A stretch of DNA of 64,000 bases, taken from Synechococcales cyanobacterium C42_A2020_086. Its GTDB lineage: Bacteria > Cyanobacteriota > Cyanobacteriia > Elainellales > Elainellaceae. The position numbers were made by a program, and so were the translations under genes. The notes under the pieces are model-generated. The model saw nothing but the letters and a program-made list of their open reading frames with translations. It did no database searches and was not told the origin of the DNA. This document shows, in pieces, positions 53,962-60,188 of this stretch (positions are counted from its first letter, which is position 1; each line of letters starts with the position of its first letter). Location of the stretch: positions 1-64,000 of the forward strand of contig JACYLU010000031.1 of the NCBI GenBank assembly GCA_015272325.1, written 5' to 3'.

Positions 53962-55143
53962 ATGGTTACCATGAATCGTGAATCACTGCGGATGCAGGCT
54001 GTGCAGTCGCCAATTATCCCCATTGTGGGAGAGCTGATCCGTAACCAGCCGGGAACCATTTCCCTAGGGCAAGGGGTGGTCTACTATGGCCCGCCGCCAA
54101 CTGCCATCGAGCGGATTGCTCAGTTTCTCGCTAACCCCGAGCACCACAAGTATCAAGCCATCGAAGGCATTCCTCCTCTTTTGGAAGCGATTCGCACCAA
54201 GCTGATCCGCGAAAATCGTATCGCTGTAGATGCCGGCAGTGCAATTGTGGTGACGGCAGGCAGCAATATGGGGTTTATGAATGCCATCTTGGCCATCCTC
54301 GATCCGGGAGACGAAGTGATCCTGCAAACGCCTTACTATTTCAACCACGAGATGGGTGTGCGCATGGCAAACGGTCAGCCGGTTTTGGTGTCCACCGACG
54401 ACCGCTATCAGCTGCGTCTAGAGGCGATTCAGCAGGCCATCACACCTCGTACCAAAGCCATCGTGACGATTTCACCCAACAATCCAACGGGCGCAGTGTA
54501 CCCTGAGGCAGACCTGCGAGCCGTCAACGAGCTATGCCGCCGCCACGGCATTTATCATATCCACGATGCCGCCTACGAATATTTCACCTACGATGGCACA
54601 ATTGCCTTTGCCCCTGGCTCGATTCCAGACAGCAATGCCCACACTATCTCTCTCTTTTCGCTCTCAAAAGCCTATGGCTTCGCTAGCTGGCGGATTGGCT
54701 ACATGGTGCTGCCCACCCAACTGCTGACGGCTGTGCGCAAAATTCAGGACACGATTTTGATTTGTGCTTCAGCAGTGTCGCAATATGCAGCCGTAGGGGC
54801 CCTAGAGGCCGGAGTGGACTACTGCCGACAAAAGCTAGAGTCTATTGCCCGCGTGCGGCAGTTGTGTCTGCAAGAACTCGCTGCCCTGCAAGACATTTGC
54901 ACGATACCGCCGGCCGATGGTGCCTTTTATTTTTTGCTGAAGCTGCACTTCGATCTTGACGCGTTTGAGCTAGTAAAACGGTTAATTCAGGACTATAAGG
55001 TCGCGGCGCTTCCGGGCACCACCTTTGGCATGGAGCAGGGCTGCTATCTGCGAATTGCTTACGGTGCTCTGCAGCAAGAAACGGTTGCCGAGGGGCTAGG
55101 GCGTTTAATTTCAGGGCTGCACCGCATCAAGCTAGAGCAGTGA
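53962..55143 (+). CDS. PLP-dependent class I/II aminotransferase
   Basis: A 393-residue fold-type I aminotransferase. Seen: substrate loop TISLGQGVVYYGPP, cofactor loop VTAGSNMGFMNAILAI, SPNNPTGAVYPEADL (cofactor Asn), HDAAYEYFTYDG, and the Schiff-base Lys236 in FSLSKAYGFASWRIGYMVL. Amino-group donor and acceptor cannot be told; closest by feel are aspartate/aromatic-type enzymes. Start ATG 53962 (MVTM); an internal Met three codons later is possible. Convergent with the minus-strand envelope cluster that ends at 55157. Confidence 0.9.
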   Translation: MVTMNRESLRMQAVQSPIIPIVGELIRNQPGTISLGQGVVYYGPPPTAIERIAQFLANPEHHKYQAIEGIPPLLEAIRTKLIRENRIAVDAGSAIVVTAGSNMGFMNAILAILDPGDEVILQTPYYFNHEMGVRMANGQPVLVSTDDRYQLRLEAIQQAITPRTKAIVTISPNNPTGAVYPEADLRAVNELCRRHGIYHIHDAAYEYFTYDGTIAFAPGSIPDSNAHTISLFSLSKAYGFASWRIGYMVLPTQLLTAVRKIQDTILICASAVSQYAAVGALEAGVDYCRQKLESIARVRQLCLQELAALQDICTIPPADGAFYFLLKLHFDLDAFELVKRLIQDYKVAALPGTTFGMEQGCYLRIAYGALQQETVAEGLGRLISGLHRIKLEQ

Positions 55144-55156
55144 AGCAGGCGGTAGG

Positions 55157-56509
55157 TTAGCGATCGAGATCCAGCAGTTGCTGCACGATGGGCAAATCGG
55201 GCGAAGCCGGCGGGGTTACAGGCGCATCGGACGCAAACAGCCCGACCACCTTTTGTGCGAACAGCCGCGCCACGGCCAGTTCTTCAGTAAACCAGCCAAT
55301 GGGCTGACTGCGCGAGGCAGCGGCAGCTATTTGCGGATCGTAGGCCCGAATGGCGCTAGCAATCGCCTCTATGCGGCGATTCTGGTCGTGGGTAATTCGG
55401 GGTTCGGTGTTGCCAAGGCCAGGCGCATTCCACCGTTGTGTTGCTGGATCAAAGAAGGAGCGCACTCGTGCCCAGAGAATCGCATCGCGGCCGGTCATGC
55501 CCTGCGCTCGCGCTTTGGCTAGCCAGTCAATGTAGCCATCGGTGTCAAGGGCTGCTTTGGGAGCCTGATTCGCTAAATCAATGCCGTTGAGCACCTCTTC
55601 TAGGCTGAGCTGTAGCCCTTTGGCGGCGGCTTTCTCTTGCAGGGTTTGCGCCTGCTTTTTCAATCGATTGAGCTGCTTGGCATCGGCTTCTTCGGGTGAG
55701 GCTGCCCCATGCTGATAAGAAAAGGTGCCCAAGTTCCAAACGCCGTTGCCGGGGTCTGTATGCCCGTAATAGCTACGATTGCGCCCACCCTCGGGAGTAC
55801 GGGTACCCTCGGCGCTGCCCACCGCCACTGCCACCAGCGATCCGGTCTCGCCAGCAAATAGCTGATCAAGCGTATAGTCTTGAGCCGGAACGGGTGGAGA
55901 TACTGGGGGCGGAGCATCGGGCGATGCAGACTGGAAAGGCGGTGGCTGCGACGCTGGAGCAGATTTGAAGGAGGGTAGATCGAAAGTTAACTCTACCGAC
56001 GGAGAAGATTTGGAGGGCAGCGGCGTGGCAGCAGGGAGTTTGGAGTCAGAGCGACTCGGACCATCGGCAGCTGAGTTGGGAGAAACGGGCACCTCTATGG
56101 GGGGCGGCGGGGGCGGCACCTCCTGCAGATCATCATCCACTCCCAATGGGGCTTCTGCTGCTTCCCAGGGAATAATCAGGCGCTGATCGGTTGGGGTGGG
56201 GGCAGGAGCCGCCGGCACGGCCGGCATCATAGGTACAGCCGCTCTATCAGTAGCTCCATCAGTAGCTCCATCAGTAGGGATAGTAGGAGGACTAGAAGGG
56301 ATTGCAGGGGGAAGGGGGTCAAACTCAAGGAAGGGCTGACTGGCGGCAGGGGTGGAGTGGGGTGCTGGCTGAACCGATCGAGACAAGCGAGGGGGTGGGC
56401 GGAGTGCTGAACTAGAAGCGCTAGAAACGGGATAGGAGGTCGCTGTGGCAGGCGATGCACTCAAAGCCAATGTTGCCATGCCCGTCAAATAGAGAAATGC
56501 TTTCTTCAT
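55157..56509 (-). CDS. Secreted Pro-rich protein, unknown (envelope cluster)
   Basis: 450 residues, unrecognised. Signal peptide MKKAFLYLTGMATLALSAS is followed by ~200 residues of Pro/Ser/Ala-rich linker with little order. After it comes a compact C-terminal domain of ~200 residues (LVAVAVGSAEGTRTPEGG, YGHTDPGNGVWNLGTFSYQH, LNGIDLANQAPKAALD, WARVRSFFDPATQRWNAPGL). The Gly/Asn/Trp-rich block vaguely recalls glycan-binding or lysozyme-like folds, but no catalytic motif can be named. Its ATG overlaps the stop of the upstream lipoprotein-like gene (ATGA, 56506-56509), implying translational coupling. A 12-bp tandem repeat at 56251-56274 encodes its Thr-Asp-Gly-Ala repeat. Confidence 0.75.
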   Translation of the reverse strand: MKKAFLYLTGMATLALSASPATATSYPVSSASSSALRPPPRLSRSVQPAPHSTPAASQPFLEFDPLPPAIPSSPPTIPTDGATDGATDRAAVPMMPAVPAAPAPTPTDQRLIIPWEAAEAPLGVDDDLQEVPPPPPPIEVPVSPNSAADGPSRSDSKLPAATPLPSKSSPSVELTFDLPSFKSAPASQPPPFQSASPDAPPPVSPPVPAQDYTLDQLFAGETGSLVAVAVGSAEGTRTPEGGRNRSYYGHTDPGNGVWNLGTFSYQHGAASPEEADAKQLNRLKKQAQTLQEKAAAKGLQLSLEEVLNGIDLANQAPKAALDTDGYIDWLAKARAQGMTGRDAILWARVRSFFDPATQRWNAPGLGNTEPRITHDQNRRIEAIASAIRAYDPQIAAAASRSQPIGWFTEELAVARLFAQKVVGLFASDAPVTPPASPDLPIVQQLLDLDR

Positions 56510-56964
56510 GGTGGTTGTAACAGTCGTTCCAGAATCGATCGAGAAGGTTCAACAAAGGTCCATGTGCCTTCGGGCTGTCTCCGCAGCGTCGCAAAATGCA
56601 AATAGGCACCTGCTCCAATGGCATCTCCCTGCCGCACTTCCCCCAGCCGCGGTTGCTTCAGCCCGCACAGGCGAAACAAGTAAGCCGGCACTTCAGGGCT
56701 AGAAAAGAGGACACACTGATGATCGGTAGGCTGAACTTGACCTGAAAAGGGGGCATACACCGTGCCTCCGTTTAGCTCTAGGGACACATCGCCGAGACCG
56801 GCCGCAATCCGGTATTCCCCCACTGAATCGCCCGACTGCAACTGCCAGGCTTGCTGAATTTGAATGGTTCTTAGCGGTACAGGAGCACGGGAGGTTGAAC
56901 AGCCAGCGCTTGCCAGTACAGCCCCAATGACTACACCATACTTTCCCCAGTTGACGCTACCCAT
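56506..56964 (-). CDS. Lipoprotein-like protein with degenerate M23/LytM-type domain
   Basis: 152 residues. N-terminus VIGAVLASAGCSTS with Cys22 gives a lipobox-like signal, so probably a membrane-anchored lipoprotein. Residues ~65-145 (TVYAPFSGQVQP, LFRLCGLKQPRLGEVRQGD, AYLHFATLRRQPEGTWTFVEPS) follow the M23 peptidase strand order. The HxxxD and HxH zinc ligands are absent (LHFATLRR instead), so a non-catalytic, EnvC/NlpD-like regulator or binder is more likely. Stop codon overlaps the start of the next gene. Confidence 0.7.
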   Translation of the reverse strand: MGSVNWGKYGVVIGAVLASAGCSTSRAPVPLRTIQIQQAWQLQSGDSVGEYRIAAGLGDVSLELNGGTVYAPFSGQVQPTDHQCVLFSSPEVPAYLFRLCGLKQPRLGEVRQGDAIGAGAYLHFATLRRQPEGTWTFVEPSRSILERLLQPP

Positions 56965-57192
56965 TGACTTACCAACGCCTCACCACAGAACTAAACCCCA
57001 TATATAGCATCAGAGACCTGGGGATGGTGGCAGCTCAAGCCAGACGGGATGGGTGACGTCAGCATTCAAAAATGGGAGTGCGAACTGGGGTTAGCAGAAC
57101 TAGGGTCAGCATCGGTTGGGGCAGCGCGGGCAGCGGCGAATAGCCACAAACCTGGCTGACCCCTGCTCGCTCATACCGTAGAGGACCAACGC

Positions 57193-57591
57193 TTAGCGCA
57201 AGACGTAGAATTGGTAGCCTGCATATTCTTCGCCCTCATACAGCACCACGAGCCAAGTCTGCGGATCGAAAGCCAGACGGTATACTGCTCGCTCAGCGGG
57301 TACACCAGCACGCACTTCCAGACTCGACAATTGGCAGTAGGGCGCTTGCAGAATGTTCTGCACGGTCGCCTTCGAGTCCCGTTCGGAAATCGTGAGGAAG
57401 GCGGCCAGTTGGTCGCGCGAAATAGTCGCGTCGGGTTGAATTTCTCCGGTGCAGTTGTCGGGTTGGCGCTCGGGACGCTGCCAGGATACCCCTTGCCGCA
57501 CATCCATCGTTAGAGCAGCCAGTACGGCGAGCGCCCCACCTAACAAAAACAGCCGCAATCCGATTTGCCCGGTATCAAGTGCCTTCGTCAT
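57193..57591 (-). CDS. Small membrane-anchored hypothetical (envelope cluster)
   Basis: 132 residues with one N-terminal membrane helix (GLRLFLLGGALAVLAALTM) and a soluble domain (DATISRDQLAAFLTISERDS, VLYEGEEYAGYQFYVLR). Preceded by GGGAGG six bases upstream of ATG 57591. Its first 17 bases overlap the end of the 33-residue ORF. Family unknown, though the tail is typical of a globular cyanobacterial hypothetical. Confidence 0.72.
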   Translation of the reverse strand: MTKALDTGQIGLRLFLLGGALAVLAALTMDVRQGVSWQRPERQPDNCTGEIQPDATISRDQLAAFLTISERDSKATVQNILQAPYCQLSSLEVRAGVPAERAVYRLAFDPQTWLVVLYEGEEYAGYQFYVLR

Positions 57592-57676
57592 GCTTGCCTC
57601 CCTTGCCGGTCAAGCCGATGGATGCACAGCAGGAAATAACGAACAAAATCCAGGCGGTTCCCAGTAACAGCATCAT
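57575..57676 (-). CDS. 33-residue single-pass membrane peptide (envelope cluster)
   Basis: ATG at 57676 with a perfect AGGAGG a few bases upstream; the Shine-Dalgarno lies within the last codons of the preceding gene and the ATG overlaps its TGA. The product begins MMLLLGTAWILFVISCCASI and ends GLTGKGGKHDEGT: one hydrophobic helix with two Cys and a charged tail. It ends inside the next gene (stop 57575-57577). Position, spacing and overlap strongly argue it is translated, though it is far shorter than gene finders accept. Confidence 0.6.
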   Translation of the reverse strand: MMLLLGTAWILFVISCCASIGLTGKGGKHDEGT

Positions 57677-58764
57677 AGTCTTCCTCCTAGCAGTAAGCCA
57701 ATCATGATGGCGAACAGGCGATAGCCCCAGGCAAAGCCAGCAGCAGGGGCAACGGTCGAGCGGTAGATAGCGATGGCGGCCGGAGTCACCATTAATCCCA
57801 GACTGGGCAACCACAGCGCCGGATAAGCCGCCACGACGACATCAAGCGCAACCCGCACCAGAGCCGCCCCAGCTAGCAGTTTTAACCCCTGCATCAGCGT
57901 GAAGGGGTGTTCTAGGGAGCGCTCTCCTGCGATCGGACGATGGCGACGGGATGCCAAGCGACCCGGTGACCGAACCGGCGACATGACTCGCAGCAGAGAC
58001 CACACCGGCTGCCATAGCCATCTGCCGAGGGTTGCCACTCCGAAGCGACGAGGAGACACCGTTCGCTGCCGCAGCACTTGCGCGGTCTCCGCGGCTTCCC
58101 GTTCTGCTCGATACAGATCCACGGGTCGGGTCGTCAGTACAAGTACGCCGTTGTCATTGCGCTCAACATGAGGCACCGCGGCATCCAGATATTCACAGAC
58201 CGCAGCGGAGCGACGCCGGCGGCGGGTTATGGACGACTGCGTTGTGGTTGACTGCTGCGCTGCGACTTCGGCAGCCAACGCTTTAAACTGCAAAATCGCG
58301 GTTTCTTGCAGAGCGGCTAATTGGTTGATGCGCTGCACCTGCACCTCTAGGGACTGCCATTGCCCAGGAAGCGAAGATTGACGCCACGCCTGGGTGGAGT
58401 GAAGCTGACGAGGCGGTTGTCCTTGCTGTTGCCTCCCCTGAGACGGCGAGACCCGGGTGGAGTGAGTTGCTCGATCAGCATGGGTAGAAGCGTTGGGTAG
58501 CGGAAAGCATGCTACTCTGCGCGGGGCATCTGTCTGAGAAGAAGATGGAGATTGGATGGGCTGCGGCGAACGAGCTACTTTCAGAGCTTCCGCTAACCCA
58601 ACCGGAGCAGACCGAGGTGAACTCTGAGTTGGGTGGGCTGGGACTGAACCAGCAGAATCAGTGGAATTAGGGGGATGCAGCAGGGTTACTGAGGCAGGGC
58701 GATCGGCCCGAATTGATCGCAGCTCAGCCTCAATGGCTTTCATTTCTGTCCGCGACTGTCTCAT
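57673..58764 (-). CDS. Membrane protein with long Pro/Ser-rich N-terminus (envelope cluster)
   Basis: About 363 residues from ATG 58764, which has AAGGAG seven bases upstream; the upstream ATG at 58824 lacks one. The first ~150 residues are low-complexity (Ser/Pro/Gln-rich), then a helical stretch (VQVQRINQLAALQETAILQF), an Arg-rich region (SSITRRRRRSAAV) and three C-terminal hydrophobic segments (LKLLAGAALVRVALDVVVAA, LPSLGLMVTPAAIAIY, FAWGYRLFAIMIGLLLGG). Family unknown. First gene of the coupled trio ending at 57193. Confidence 0.7.
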   Translation of the reverse strand: MRQSRTEMKAIEAELRSIRADRPASVTLLHPPNSTDSAGSVPAHPTQSSPRSAPVGLAEALKVARSPQPIQSPSSSQTDAPRRVACFPLPNASTHADRATHSTRVSPSQGRQQQGQPPRQLHSTQAWRQSSLPGQWQSLEVQVQRINQLAALQETAILQFKALAAEVAAQQSTTTQSSITRRRRRSAAVCEYLDAAVPHVERNDNGVLVLTTRPVDLYRAEREAAETAQVLRQRTVSPRRFGVATLGRWLWQPVWSLLRVMSPVRSPGRLASRRHRPIAGERSLEHPFTLMQGLKLLAGAALVRVALDVVVAAYPALWLPSLGLMVTPAAIAIYRSTVAPAAGFAWGYRLFAIMIGLLLGGRL

Positions 58765-58829
58765 GTCGTCTCCTTGGGGGCATGCCCAACTCGATGTGAC
58801 CAAGAGCGCTGATGAGAGATTCAATGATA

Positions 58830-58889
58830 ATGGTACTGATGTACTATCAACGCACTAGTATCCTAACATGAATAGTTCATATGTACTAT
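58830..58889. promoter_or_regulatory. Pair of 18-bp palindromic operator-like sites
   Basis: ATAGTTCATATGTACTAT (58872-58889) is a near-perfect dyad, and ATGGTACTGATGTACTAT (58830-58847) a related copy, with starts 42 bp apart, i.e. four helical turns. They lie 66-125 bp upstream of the start of the minus-strand gene at 57673-58764 and are placed to control the envelope cluster. Confidence 0.55.
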
Positions 58890-59261
58890 ATCTAGCGCAA
58901 ATTTTTTTGGGAAATGCCAAAATCCCCCGGCAGTCAATTCTCCGGCAGTACATGTGGGAAACGCCTTGGGCGACACTGCATGTTGACAGATCCAGCCTAG
59001 GGCCGGGCATCACGACGGCGGTTCGCGCTTCTCTGGTGAGACTGTACTAGGGCTATACCACTAGGGCTATCCCTGGTCAGGTGAGTGAAACGGCAGAGGC
59101 TGAGGTGTACTGGCCGCTGTACTAACTAGCGGCTGTACTAAGACGCTATCCGGCGACCCAACCTGCAGGCTGTGAATCTAGACGGACCCTATAGGCAGCA
59201 ATGGTGATGGATTCACTCGGTCAAGCGTTTGCCGCAACAGTCATTGCCTCCTCGGGACGGC
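58890..59261. other. Gap between envelope-cluster genes
   Basis: No gene found. Contains a 14-bp tandem duplication ACTAGGGCTATACC / ACTAGGGCTATCCC at 59046-59073, one mismatch. No clear terminator for the 308-residue gene upstream. Confidence 0.5.
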
Positions 59262-60188
59262 TCATAGGTCCTCCGGCGGTTCGGCAGAGGGTGCCGCTGG
59301 CGGTTCTACTGGCAACTCAGAGTGAGTGGCGTCTGGCTGAGGGGAAGCAGCAATGGTCTCAGGCAGTGGCTTTGTGTCGTCTTTGAATGGCACCGTATCT
59401 ACAATCTCGACGACGGGGGGATCTGCTTCTGGAGCGATGGGATCGGGTCGCTCGGCAGAGTTGGGATAGTCGGGATAGTTGGGGTACTCAGGATGATCGG
59501 GATAATCAGGATAATGGGGATGGTCGGGGTAGCCTGGATGACCCGGATGGTCTGGATGGGGATAGTGAGGTGGCACTGGATGGGGTACGGGCACCGGCAC
59601 GATTTCCGTCCTGCCGGGCACATGGATAATTTCAGTCTTTCCTGGCGTTTCAACGTAGCGGGTTTGCACAATCACCTGCGGTTTAGCAGCAGGCGGTTGC
59701 AGTGTTGCCAAGAATTCCGGGGCGAGGCGTTCTGTCGCAAATTTAATGTACGCTTCGCGGTTGTGCGCGTAGTCTCCGGCTACTTGGGTTCGATACATCT
59801 GATCAAACTGGGTGCGAACCTGCCAATAGTCGCAGCCTGCATGCAGCCAACTCGCAATTTGATGCCCGATGACAATCCGCTCGCGATCGCTGAGACGCTG
59901 GCGTTCACGCGGTTGCAGCGTTTGTGATAAATCGTAAAGATAATCGTTTTCGGCTGGCGTCCAGGCAGCGACGGGGTGGCTTGGCAGAGAACTGACGGGG
60001 CGGAAGGAGGAGTTGCCGGTATTCTCTTCGGCGGACTCAGAGAGATATTCATCGGCTTTCTCGCTAGTGCGGTTCACCTGAGCGGGTACAATTTGCTGCG
60101 ATTGCCGAAACACCGTAATCGCGCCGAATGATCCAGCCGCCATACCCAAACCAATCGCTATGCCCGCCACCAACTGTCCACACTGCAT
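59262..60188 (-). CDS. Membrane-anchored protein with Tyr-Pro-Asp-His repeat region (envelope cluster)
   Basis: 308 residues, unrecognised. N-terminal membrane helix (GIAIGLGMAAGSFGAITVF), then a helical region (VIGHQIASWLHAGCDYWQVR, FDQMYRTQVAGDYAHNREAY, somewhat like DUF732 domains). A conspicuous central region of His/Tyr-Pro-Asp repeats follows (PHPDHPGHPGYPDHPHYPDY), then an acidic Pro/Glu-rich tail. The repeat DNA at about 59465-59580 is a 9-12 bp periodic purine-rich array. The repeat could be a flexible spacer through peptidoglycan or a metal-binding segment (His-rich); neither is shown. Confidence 0.75.
   Translation of the reverse strand: MQCGQLVAGIAIGLGMAAGSFGAITVFRQSQQIVPAQVNRTSEKADEYLSESAEENTGNSSFRPVSSLPSHPVAAWTPAENDYLYDLSQTLQPRERQRLSDRERIVIGHQIASWLHAGCDYWQVRTQFDQMYRTQVAGDYAHNREAYIKFATERLAPEFLATLQPPAAKPQVIVQTRYVETPGKTEIIHVPGRTEIVPVPVPHPVPPHYPHPDHPGHPGYPDHPHYPDYPDHPEYPNYPDYPNSAERPDPIAPEADPPVVEIVDTVPFKDDTKPLPETIAASPQPDATHSELPVEPPAAPSAEPPEDL

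Follow-up and report, generated by a model that had tools for sequence, protein, structure and literature searches.

On its minus strand, a 64,000-nucleotide stretch of the cyanobacterium Synechococcales C42_A2020_086 (contig JACYLU010000031.1, positions 1 to 64,000; hereafter the window) carries an operon of five envelope genes, called P2 to P6 here, which ends in a gene for a muramidase-like protein and is preceded by LexA-type operators. We place the probability that this operon is a DNA-damage-controlled module for breaching the cell wall at roughly 0.5. The reading draws on the computed conservation of the operon, on the muramidase-like fold of P6 and the phage contexts in which that fold recurs, on the loss of the metal-binding loops from the M23-related protein P5, and on the LexA-type operators themselves.

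The original prediction had grouped six open reading frames (ORFs) of this region, P2 to P6 and a further one termed P1, into one envelope cluster of no nameable family. All six were present on the minus strand where it had placed them, and the overlaps between P2 and P3 (57673-57676), P3 and P4 (57575-57591) and P5 and P6 (56506-56509), which fit translational coupling, were confirmed in the sequence. Searches of the six products against Pfam, NCBIfam and PHROG gave no family match above chance, and P5 and P6 had no match among PDB sequences. The prediction had staked itself on conservation of the neighbourhood, and the gene order proved to be conserved. Relatives of P6 were found in 59 of 97 other genomes of the same family and class, and P2, P4, P5 and P6 kept their order and strand across 44 related neighbourhoods. 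A scan of named genomes yielded 80 loci, exclusively from cyanobacteria and mostly from filamentous genera (Leptolyngbya, Elainella, Nodosilinea, Myxacorys, Phormidesmis, Stenomitos and others), in most of which the order P2-(P3)-P4-P5-P6 was found on one strand; P4 and P6 occurred together in 68 of them, P5 in 64 and P2 in 55, several contigs being cut. Among 386 genomes from across the phylum, P6 was present in 23 and P4 in 10; all ten genomes with P4 also had P6, and the two genes adjoined in nine. In three loci (L058, L063 and L064) P4 and P5 were fused into a single gene. This clustering is far beyond chance, and P2 to P6 form a real operon.

P1 did not share this conservation. Its relatives are confined to the closest genera, none was found in the 44 related neighbourhoods searched, and in five relatives possessing P1 it was located on a different contig from the operon. 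P1 was therefore rejected as a sixth member and, because it never recurs beside the operon, the conserved unit is P2 to P6, which leaves five of the six genes originally grouped together. A paralogue of P1 is encoded elsewhere in its own genome (G000:C6:233918-234370).

Residues 215-387 of P6 are strongly conserved across the copies of the operon, and the residues that are invariant even in very divergent copies include E234, G235, H250, D252, N259, S264, D276, D311, Q315, R348, Q376 and R379. An AlphaFold2 model of this domain was mostly helical, with a predicted local distance difference test score (pLDDT) of 89.4 and a predicted template modelling score (pTM) of 0.84. When the model was compared with solved structures using Foldseek, the ten best matches were muramidases or phage endolysins with probabilities of up to 0.98, but with expectation values (E) of about 0.1 and template modelling (TM) scores of 0.3-0.57; a pesticin-lysozyme hybrid was among the weak matches. 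Among viral models, a LysM virion protein matched best through its C-terminus (E 7.5e-9), ahead of lysozymes and endolysins. The predicted fold is closest to that of the GH24 phage lysozymes, and 16 diverse members of the domain searched against Pfam, even at an E of 10, gave no relevant match, GH24/Phage_lysozyme included. Given the weak Foldseek E-values, P6 is at most a distant relative of GH24 and is not filed as a member. On the strength of the models, it is well supported that the C-terminal domain of P6 represents a muramidase-like, undescribed family common to cyanobacteria, their plasmids and their phages. P6 is predicted with good confidence to be an active muramidase, and E234 would be its likely catalytic acid. 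The original prediction had recognised P6 as a secreted protein with a long disordered linker, which agrees with its signal-peptide-like N-terminus and the variable, low-complexity sequence that follows, and had overlooked the conserved enzyme-like domain. Elsewhere (L059:4039-11499, genome G022), a 2486-residue protein resembling a tail or virion protein of a phage carries a P6-type muramidase domain near residues 1572-1742.

P5 was aligned using hhalign with four M23 domains from plasmids and phages, three passing the Pfam PF01551 cut-off and one falling below it, with probabilities of 97-98% and E of about 1e-11 to 1e-12 over 93-99 columns, from a P5 alignment of low diversity (effective number of sequences about 3.5). 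Deletions in P5 have removed the loop bearing H...HxGxD, where the first zinc ligands lie, and the one ahead of HxH, and the catalytic His has become Gly; both loops that bear the M23 zinc ligands, H...D and HxH, were deleted or replaced in all aligned P5 sequences. By these alignments P5 is a true M23 relative and a pseudo-enzyme through metal-loop deletion, which upholds the earlier view of an M23-like protein lacking zinc ligands and identifies deletion as the manner of their loss. The signal peptides, lipoboxes and membrane helices previously assigned to the six products were largely borne out, hydropathy supporting membrane segments in P1, P2, P3 and P4; in P5, Cys 22 is kept in at least 90% of relatives and its lipobox, S-A-G-C, is weak. 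P4 combines one membrane helix with a domain containing two invariant Cys residues, and its AlphaFold2 model (pLDDT 83.5) resembled BLIP and BamE in Foldseek (probability 0.98-1.00, E 0.008-0.02), with no sequence-family match. Since BLIP inhibits an enzyme and BamE serves as a scaffold, P4 may restrain or position P6. By analogy with NlpD and EnvC, P5 may act on P6 as a metal-free activator or partner. The trans-envelope complex touching peptidoglycan that was originally proposed accords with the shared inheritance of inner-membrane P2 to P4, lipoprotein-like P5 and exported P6, and with the P4-P5 fusions, from which the complex itself may be envisaged.

For P2, an ATG at 58764 is preceded by AAGGAG and is the likelier start, the listed alternative, TTG at 58824, being probably wrong. 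Upstream of it, AGTACATCAGTACC is the sole exact match in the window to RGTACNNNDGTWCB, the cyanobacterial LexA box consensus (quoted in PMC3091678); 5.9 Mb of sequence contain 13 strict palindromes, this one included. An exact box preceded the operon in 36 of the 69 relatives with P2, P4 or P5, and an operator ahead of the genes is thus part of what is conserved, an element that the original prediction had not included. Over all 80 loci, 40 boxes were found in 46.6 kb of upstream DNA and five in 880 kb from other parts of these loci, an odds ratio of about 150, with a P value of 1e-46 that takes no account of relatedness. While the high identity within the boxes follows from the construction of the search, the flanks of 33 non-redundant examples showed a pairwise identity of about 0.30, hardly above that of random DNA, and the recurrence of the box is thus not simple sequence carry-over. 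In 12 of these 33 relatives the exact box directly followed TAT, making TATAGT. A single lexA gene is present in the genome of the window, and GGTACAAATGTTCT, which belongs to the same class of box, lies upstream of it; among 30 lexA promoters from this genome and its relatives, 19 had an exact box and 28 a box with at most one mismatch, against expectations per promoter of 0.014 and 0.06. An AGTAC-N4-GTACT box also lies 88 nt before an ssb-like gene (named by reading) in the same genome; upstream of recA, at about 350 nt, there is no more than a box with one mismatch. Judged from these sites, the operon is very probably under LexA-type control, and from the sequence of the box LexA itself would be the repressor. 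A second LexA-like protein is encoded in several relatives (G008, G009, G016, G019, G028 and others), immediately beside lexA in G019 and G028, and could be the actual regulator of the operon. In another family, a distant stand-alone P6 (L057:9605-12728, genome G053) has an exact LexA box about 30 nt before its start, and its surroundings include an ssb-like gene at a distance of about 1.6 kb and a nearby mreB-like gene; the genome of the window likewise has an ssb-like gene with a LexA-type box next to an mreB-like gene (L192).

Phages carry the same domain. In three viral contigs (L155-L157) a secreted P6-type protein is encoded just upstream of terminase, portal and capsid-like genes, the terminase being a profile match and the portal and capsid assigned by reading and position. 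A Microcoleus phage has a P6-type gene adjoining amidase, LytH-type and M23 genes, and in a Krakvirus the domain forms the end of a LysM protein. Compared with a phage lysis cassette, the operon has an endolysin-type enzyme, its muramidase-like domain being common to phage genes in lysis-like contexts; the small membrane protein P3 and the membrane and lipoprotein pair P4-P5 could at most be candidates for the holin and spanin parts, but these have no family matches and P5 is M23-like. The copies in L155-L157 fell inside the cellular operon clade, near the P6 of the window, with moderate support; other phage branches were too long to place. A phage origin of P6 was rejected on this nesting, which indicates that these phages probably took the gene from their hosts; this speaks indirectly for an ability of the exported domain to breach cell walls. 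The operon as a prophage remnant was also rejected, since its conserved neighbours include no phage structural genes and some relatives share chromosomal neighbours. The families common to the operon neighbourhoods were the operon genes and scattered other genes. An aminotransferase-like gene (53962-55143, named by reading) directly adjoins P6 in the window and adjoins the operon in L040, L048 and L049, which suggests a partly stable chromosomal site. In L048 (G023:C6:4009478-4011457), partial, inverted and repeated P4/P6 fragments adjoin the intact operon, a sign of local rearrangement.

On plasmids and in phages, the relatives of P6 come with M23 proteins whose zinc motifs are intact; P5 is a pseudo-M23 whose catalytic relatives still adjoin the same enzyme. 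In plasmid- or phage-like clusters (L031, L033, L034, L074 and L158), small membrane proteins, a catalytic M23 and a P6-type domain occur together with a ParM-like actin or with P-loop ATPases, which in L158 are FtsK-like; these clusters may represent an undescribed system for DNA transfer or of the envelope, on plasmids typed as non-mobilizable. LexA boxes were found neither in phage copies of P6 nor upstream of the muramidase gene in the L031, L033, L034 and L158 clusters.

The following mechanism can be envisaged. LexA bound to palindromes overlapping or just downstream of the promoter would keep the operon off, and DNA damage would release it through RecA-stimulated cleavage of LexA. P6 would then be exported by Sec, and its C-terminal domain would cut the glycan strands of peptidoglycan in the manner of lysozyme, the long linker giving it reach. 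Its partners in the periplasm would be P4, BLIP-like and anchored in the membrane, and P5, once an M23 enzyme; they would hold P6, place it or switch it, while P2 and P3 would link the module to the inner membrane. In the end the wall would be opened locally or the damaged cell would lyse. Whether wall breach or lysis is the purpose of the operon is an even call. The positions of the genes and sites involved are given in Table 1.

Table 1. Genes, domain and promoter elements in and around the operon.
Feature	Position in window	Strand	Description
P1	59262..60188	-	His/Tyr-Pro-Asp repeat protein; outside the operon
Promoter-like TTCCCA-17-TATAGT	58885..58913	-	9/12 positions in a consensus scan; weak evidence alone
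Second LexA-like site AGTACATATGAACT	58874..58887	-	One mismatch; overlaps the -10-like hexamer; read from the sequence
LexA-box palindrome AGTACATCAGTACC	58832..58845	-	68-81 nt before the P2 start; exact RGTACNNNDGTWCB match
P2	57673..58764	-	Pro-rich cytoplasmic region and two or three C-terminal membrane segments (hydropathy); relatives in 55/80 loci, always first in order
P3	57575..57676	-	33-residue membrane peptide with a single span; overlaps P2 and P4; at least 15 loci have short relatives in this place
P4	57193..57591	-	Membrane helix and BLIP/BamE-like domain (domain about 57196-57459)
P5	56506..56964	-	Lipoprotein-like degenerate M23/LytM protein (domain about 56536-56832)
P6	55157..56509	-	Signal peptide, long Pro-rich linker and C-terminal muramidase-like domain; relatives in 80/80 loci
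P6 muramidase-like domain	55349..55867	-	Residues 215-387; invariant E234, H250 and D252

Several observations weigh against a damage-controlled wall-breaching role. An exact box was absent from 33 of the 69 loci, many of which have a one-mismatch site near the start or a cut contig. Boxes were not enriched genome-wide, with 50 matches against 59 for the reversed control and 13 strict palindromes against 11, and the LexA claim therefore rests on the position and conservation of the box. The operon boxes (AGTAC-N4-GTACT) also differ slightly from the lexA boxes (GGTAC-N4-GTTCT). The catalytic motif of GH24 enzymes consists of Glu, eight residues, Asp or Cys, five residues and Thr; this spacing was absent from P6, whose invariant E234 and D252 are 18 residues apart, and the Foldseek E against solved structures was only about 0.1. 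Finally, P2 to P5 would be more machinery than simple suicide calls for, and vertical retention is at least as compatible with a controlled function.

The last point favours the strongest alternative, an SOS division checkpoint or wall-remodelling system, by which septation would be halted or cells cut apart at damaged sites, with fragmentation of the filament and no general lysis. Here the membrane components would act like SOS-induced division inhibitors and P6 would trim the septal wall under the control of P4 and P5. Small membrane division inhibitors induced by SOS are common, as in YneA, SidA and SosA (PMC13396833, PMC4211646, PMC6851548), septal hydrolases are activated by degenerate LytM proteins (PMC5533458), and both the mostly filamentous named hosts and the long-term vertical retention of several membrane partners suit such controlled use. 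In contrast, P6 resembles phage lysins and is used by phages beside terminase, the known degenerate LytM activators act on amidases and not on muramidases, and no divisome gene was seen beside the operon among the families shared by the 44 related neighbourhoods. We regard this alternative as rather unlikely, though the best placed of its kind. An improbable one is SOS-induced release or transfer of DNA, in which the wall would be opened for DNA to leave or enter and the operon would be a chromosomal offshoot of the plasmid clusters of muramidase, catalytic M23 and P-loop ATPases. It draws on the plasmid and phage relatives, where the P6 domain and M23 come together with membrane proteins and with P-loop ATPases of FtsK-like or other type, and on Helicobacter pylori, in which a damage-induced lysozyme promotes DNA donation (PMC2912397). 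However, of the components of a conjugative type IV secretion system, no ATPase, coupling protein, relaxase or pilus gene recurred beside the chromosomal operon among the families shared by its neighbourhoods, and the ATPases on the plasmids are weakly classified, save the FtsK-like one in L158.

The original prediction had seen in the cluster a trans-envelope complex touching peptidoglycan, in effect a structural system, and a further alternative is such a complex as a standing one free of stress control. Five membrane or secreted products kept together would fit such a constitutive structure, but the LexA boxes in 36 of 69 relatives, with flanks that cannot be aligned, imply damage-controlled expression, and the P6 domain is that of an enzyme-like hydrolase and not of a structural part. 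Both features had been overlooked; we favour a stress-induced reading in its place and hold the constitutive one to be very doubtful. Least probable of all is an SOS-induced bacteriocin, with P6 released to attack neighbours and P4 and P5 as immunity proteins, for although a muramidase-like domain behind a long linker, the pesticin-lysozyme hybrid among the weak fold matches and the likeness of P4 to the inhibitor BLIP would suit it, P6 shows no receptor-binding or translocation domain, only a variable, low-complexity linker, and has a Sec-type signal, which typical colicins lack.

Within the wall-breaching reading, a more specific version can be put forward tentatively, as possible and no better than that: a vertically kept, non-prophage SOS death or breach machine of filamentous cyanobacteria, in which LexA would directly repress a five-gene trans-envelope module centred on a new muramidase family and a pseudo-M23 activator, the enzyme having been taken up by phages as a lysin. 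If true, this machine would provide a molecular basis for damage-induced sacrificial lysis in multicellular bacteria. With its LexA-type operator and exported muramidase-like protein, the operon offers a concrete, testable set of genes by which DNA damage may be tied to the opening of the wall, the release of DNA or the fragmentation of filaments. In filamentous cyanobacteria, the breakage of filaments and the regulated death of cells have been described morphologically, as necridia. Neither endolysin, holin nor SOS is mentioned in a review from 2022 on regulated cell death in cyanobacteria (PMC9415839). Arthrospira is without lexA, and its radiation papers name lysozyme solely as a reagent.

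The operon can be set beside several systems. The cyanobacterial plasmid and phage clusters (L031, L033, L034 and L158) share its muramidase domain, with M23 and small membrane proteins immediately upstream, but their M23 proteins keep the zinc ligands and several of the clusters include a P-loop ATPase. GH24 phage lysozymes and endolysins resemble P6 in predicted fold, phage lysis contexts and an invariant Glu, whereas P6 has no detectable sequence match to them, spaces its acidic residues differently and carries a long Pro-rich linker. NlpD and EnvC, with their Ami amidases (PMC5533458), offer the nearest likeness to P5, a lipoprotein-like M23 relative free of zinc ligands and paired with a peptidoglycan hydrolase; P5 differs in having neither LysM nor coiled coil, in the deletion of its metal loops and in a partner that is muramidase-like and not an amidase. 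In H. pylori, DNA damage induces the T4-like lysozyme HPG27_320, the product of a chromosomal gene under damage control as proposed here, but this is a single T4 lysozyme homologue for which M23-like or membrane partners, both present in the operon, are undescribed (PMC2912397). In Pseudomonas aeruginosa, an SOS-induced endolysin, Lys, causes explosive lysis (PMC4834629) and thus likewise joins a wall-cutting, endolysin-like enzyme to DNA-damage control. Lys, however, sits in a prophage-like pyocin cluster that mediates its SOS control, while the operon is stand-alone and chromosomal, with LexA-type boxes at its own promoter, a predicted Sec-exported enzyme and pseudo-M23 and BLIP-like partners.

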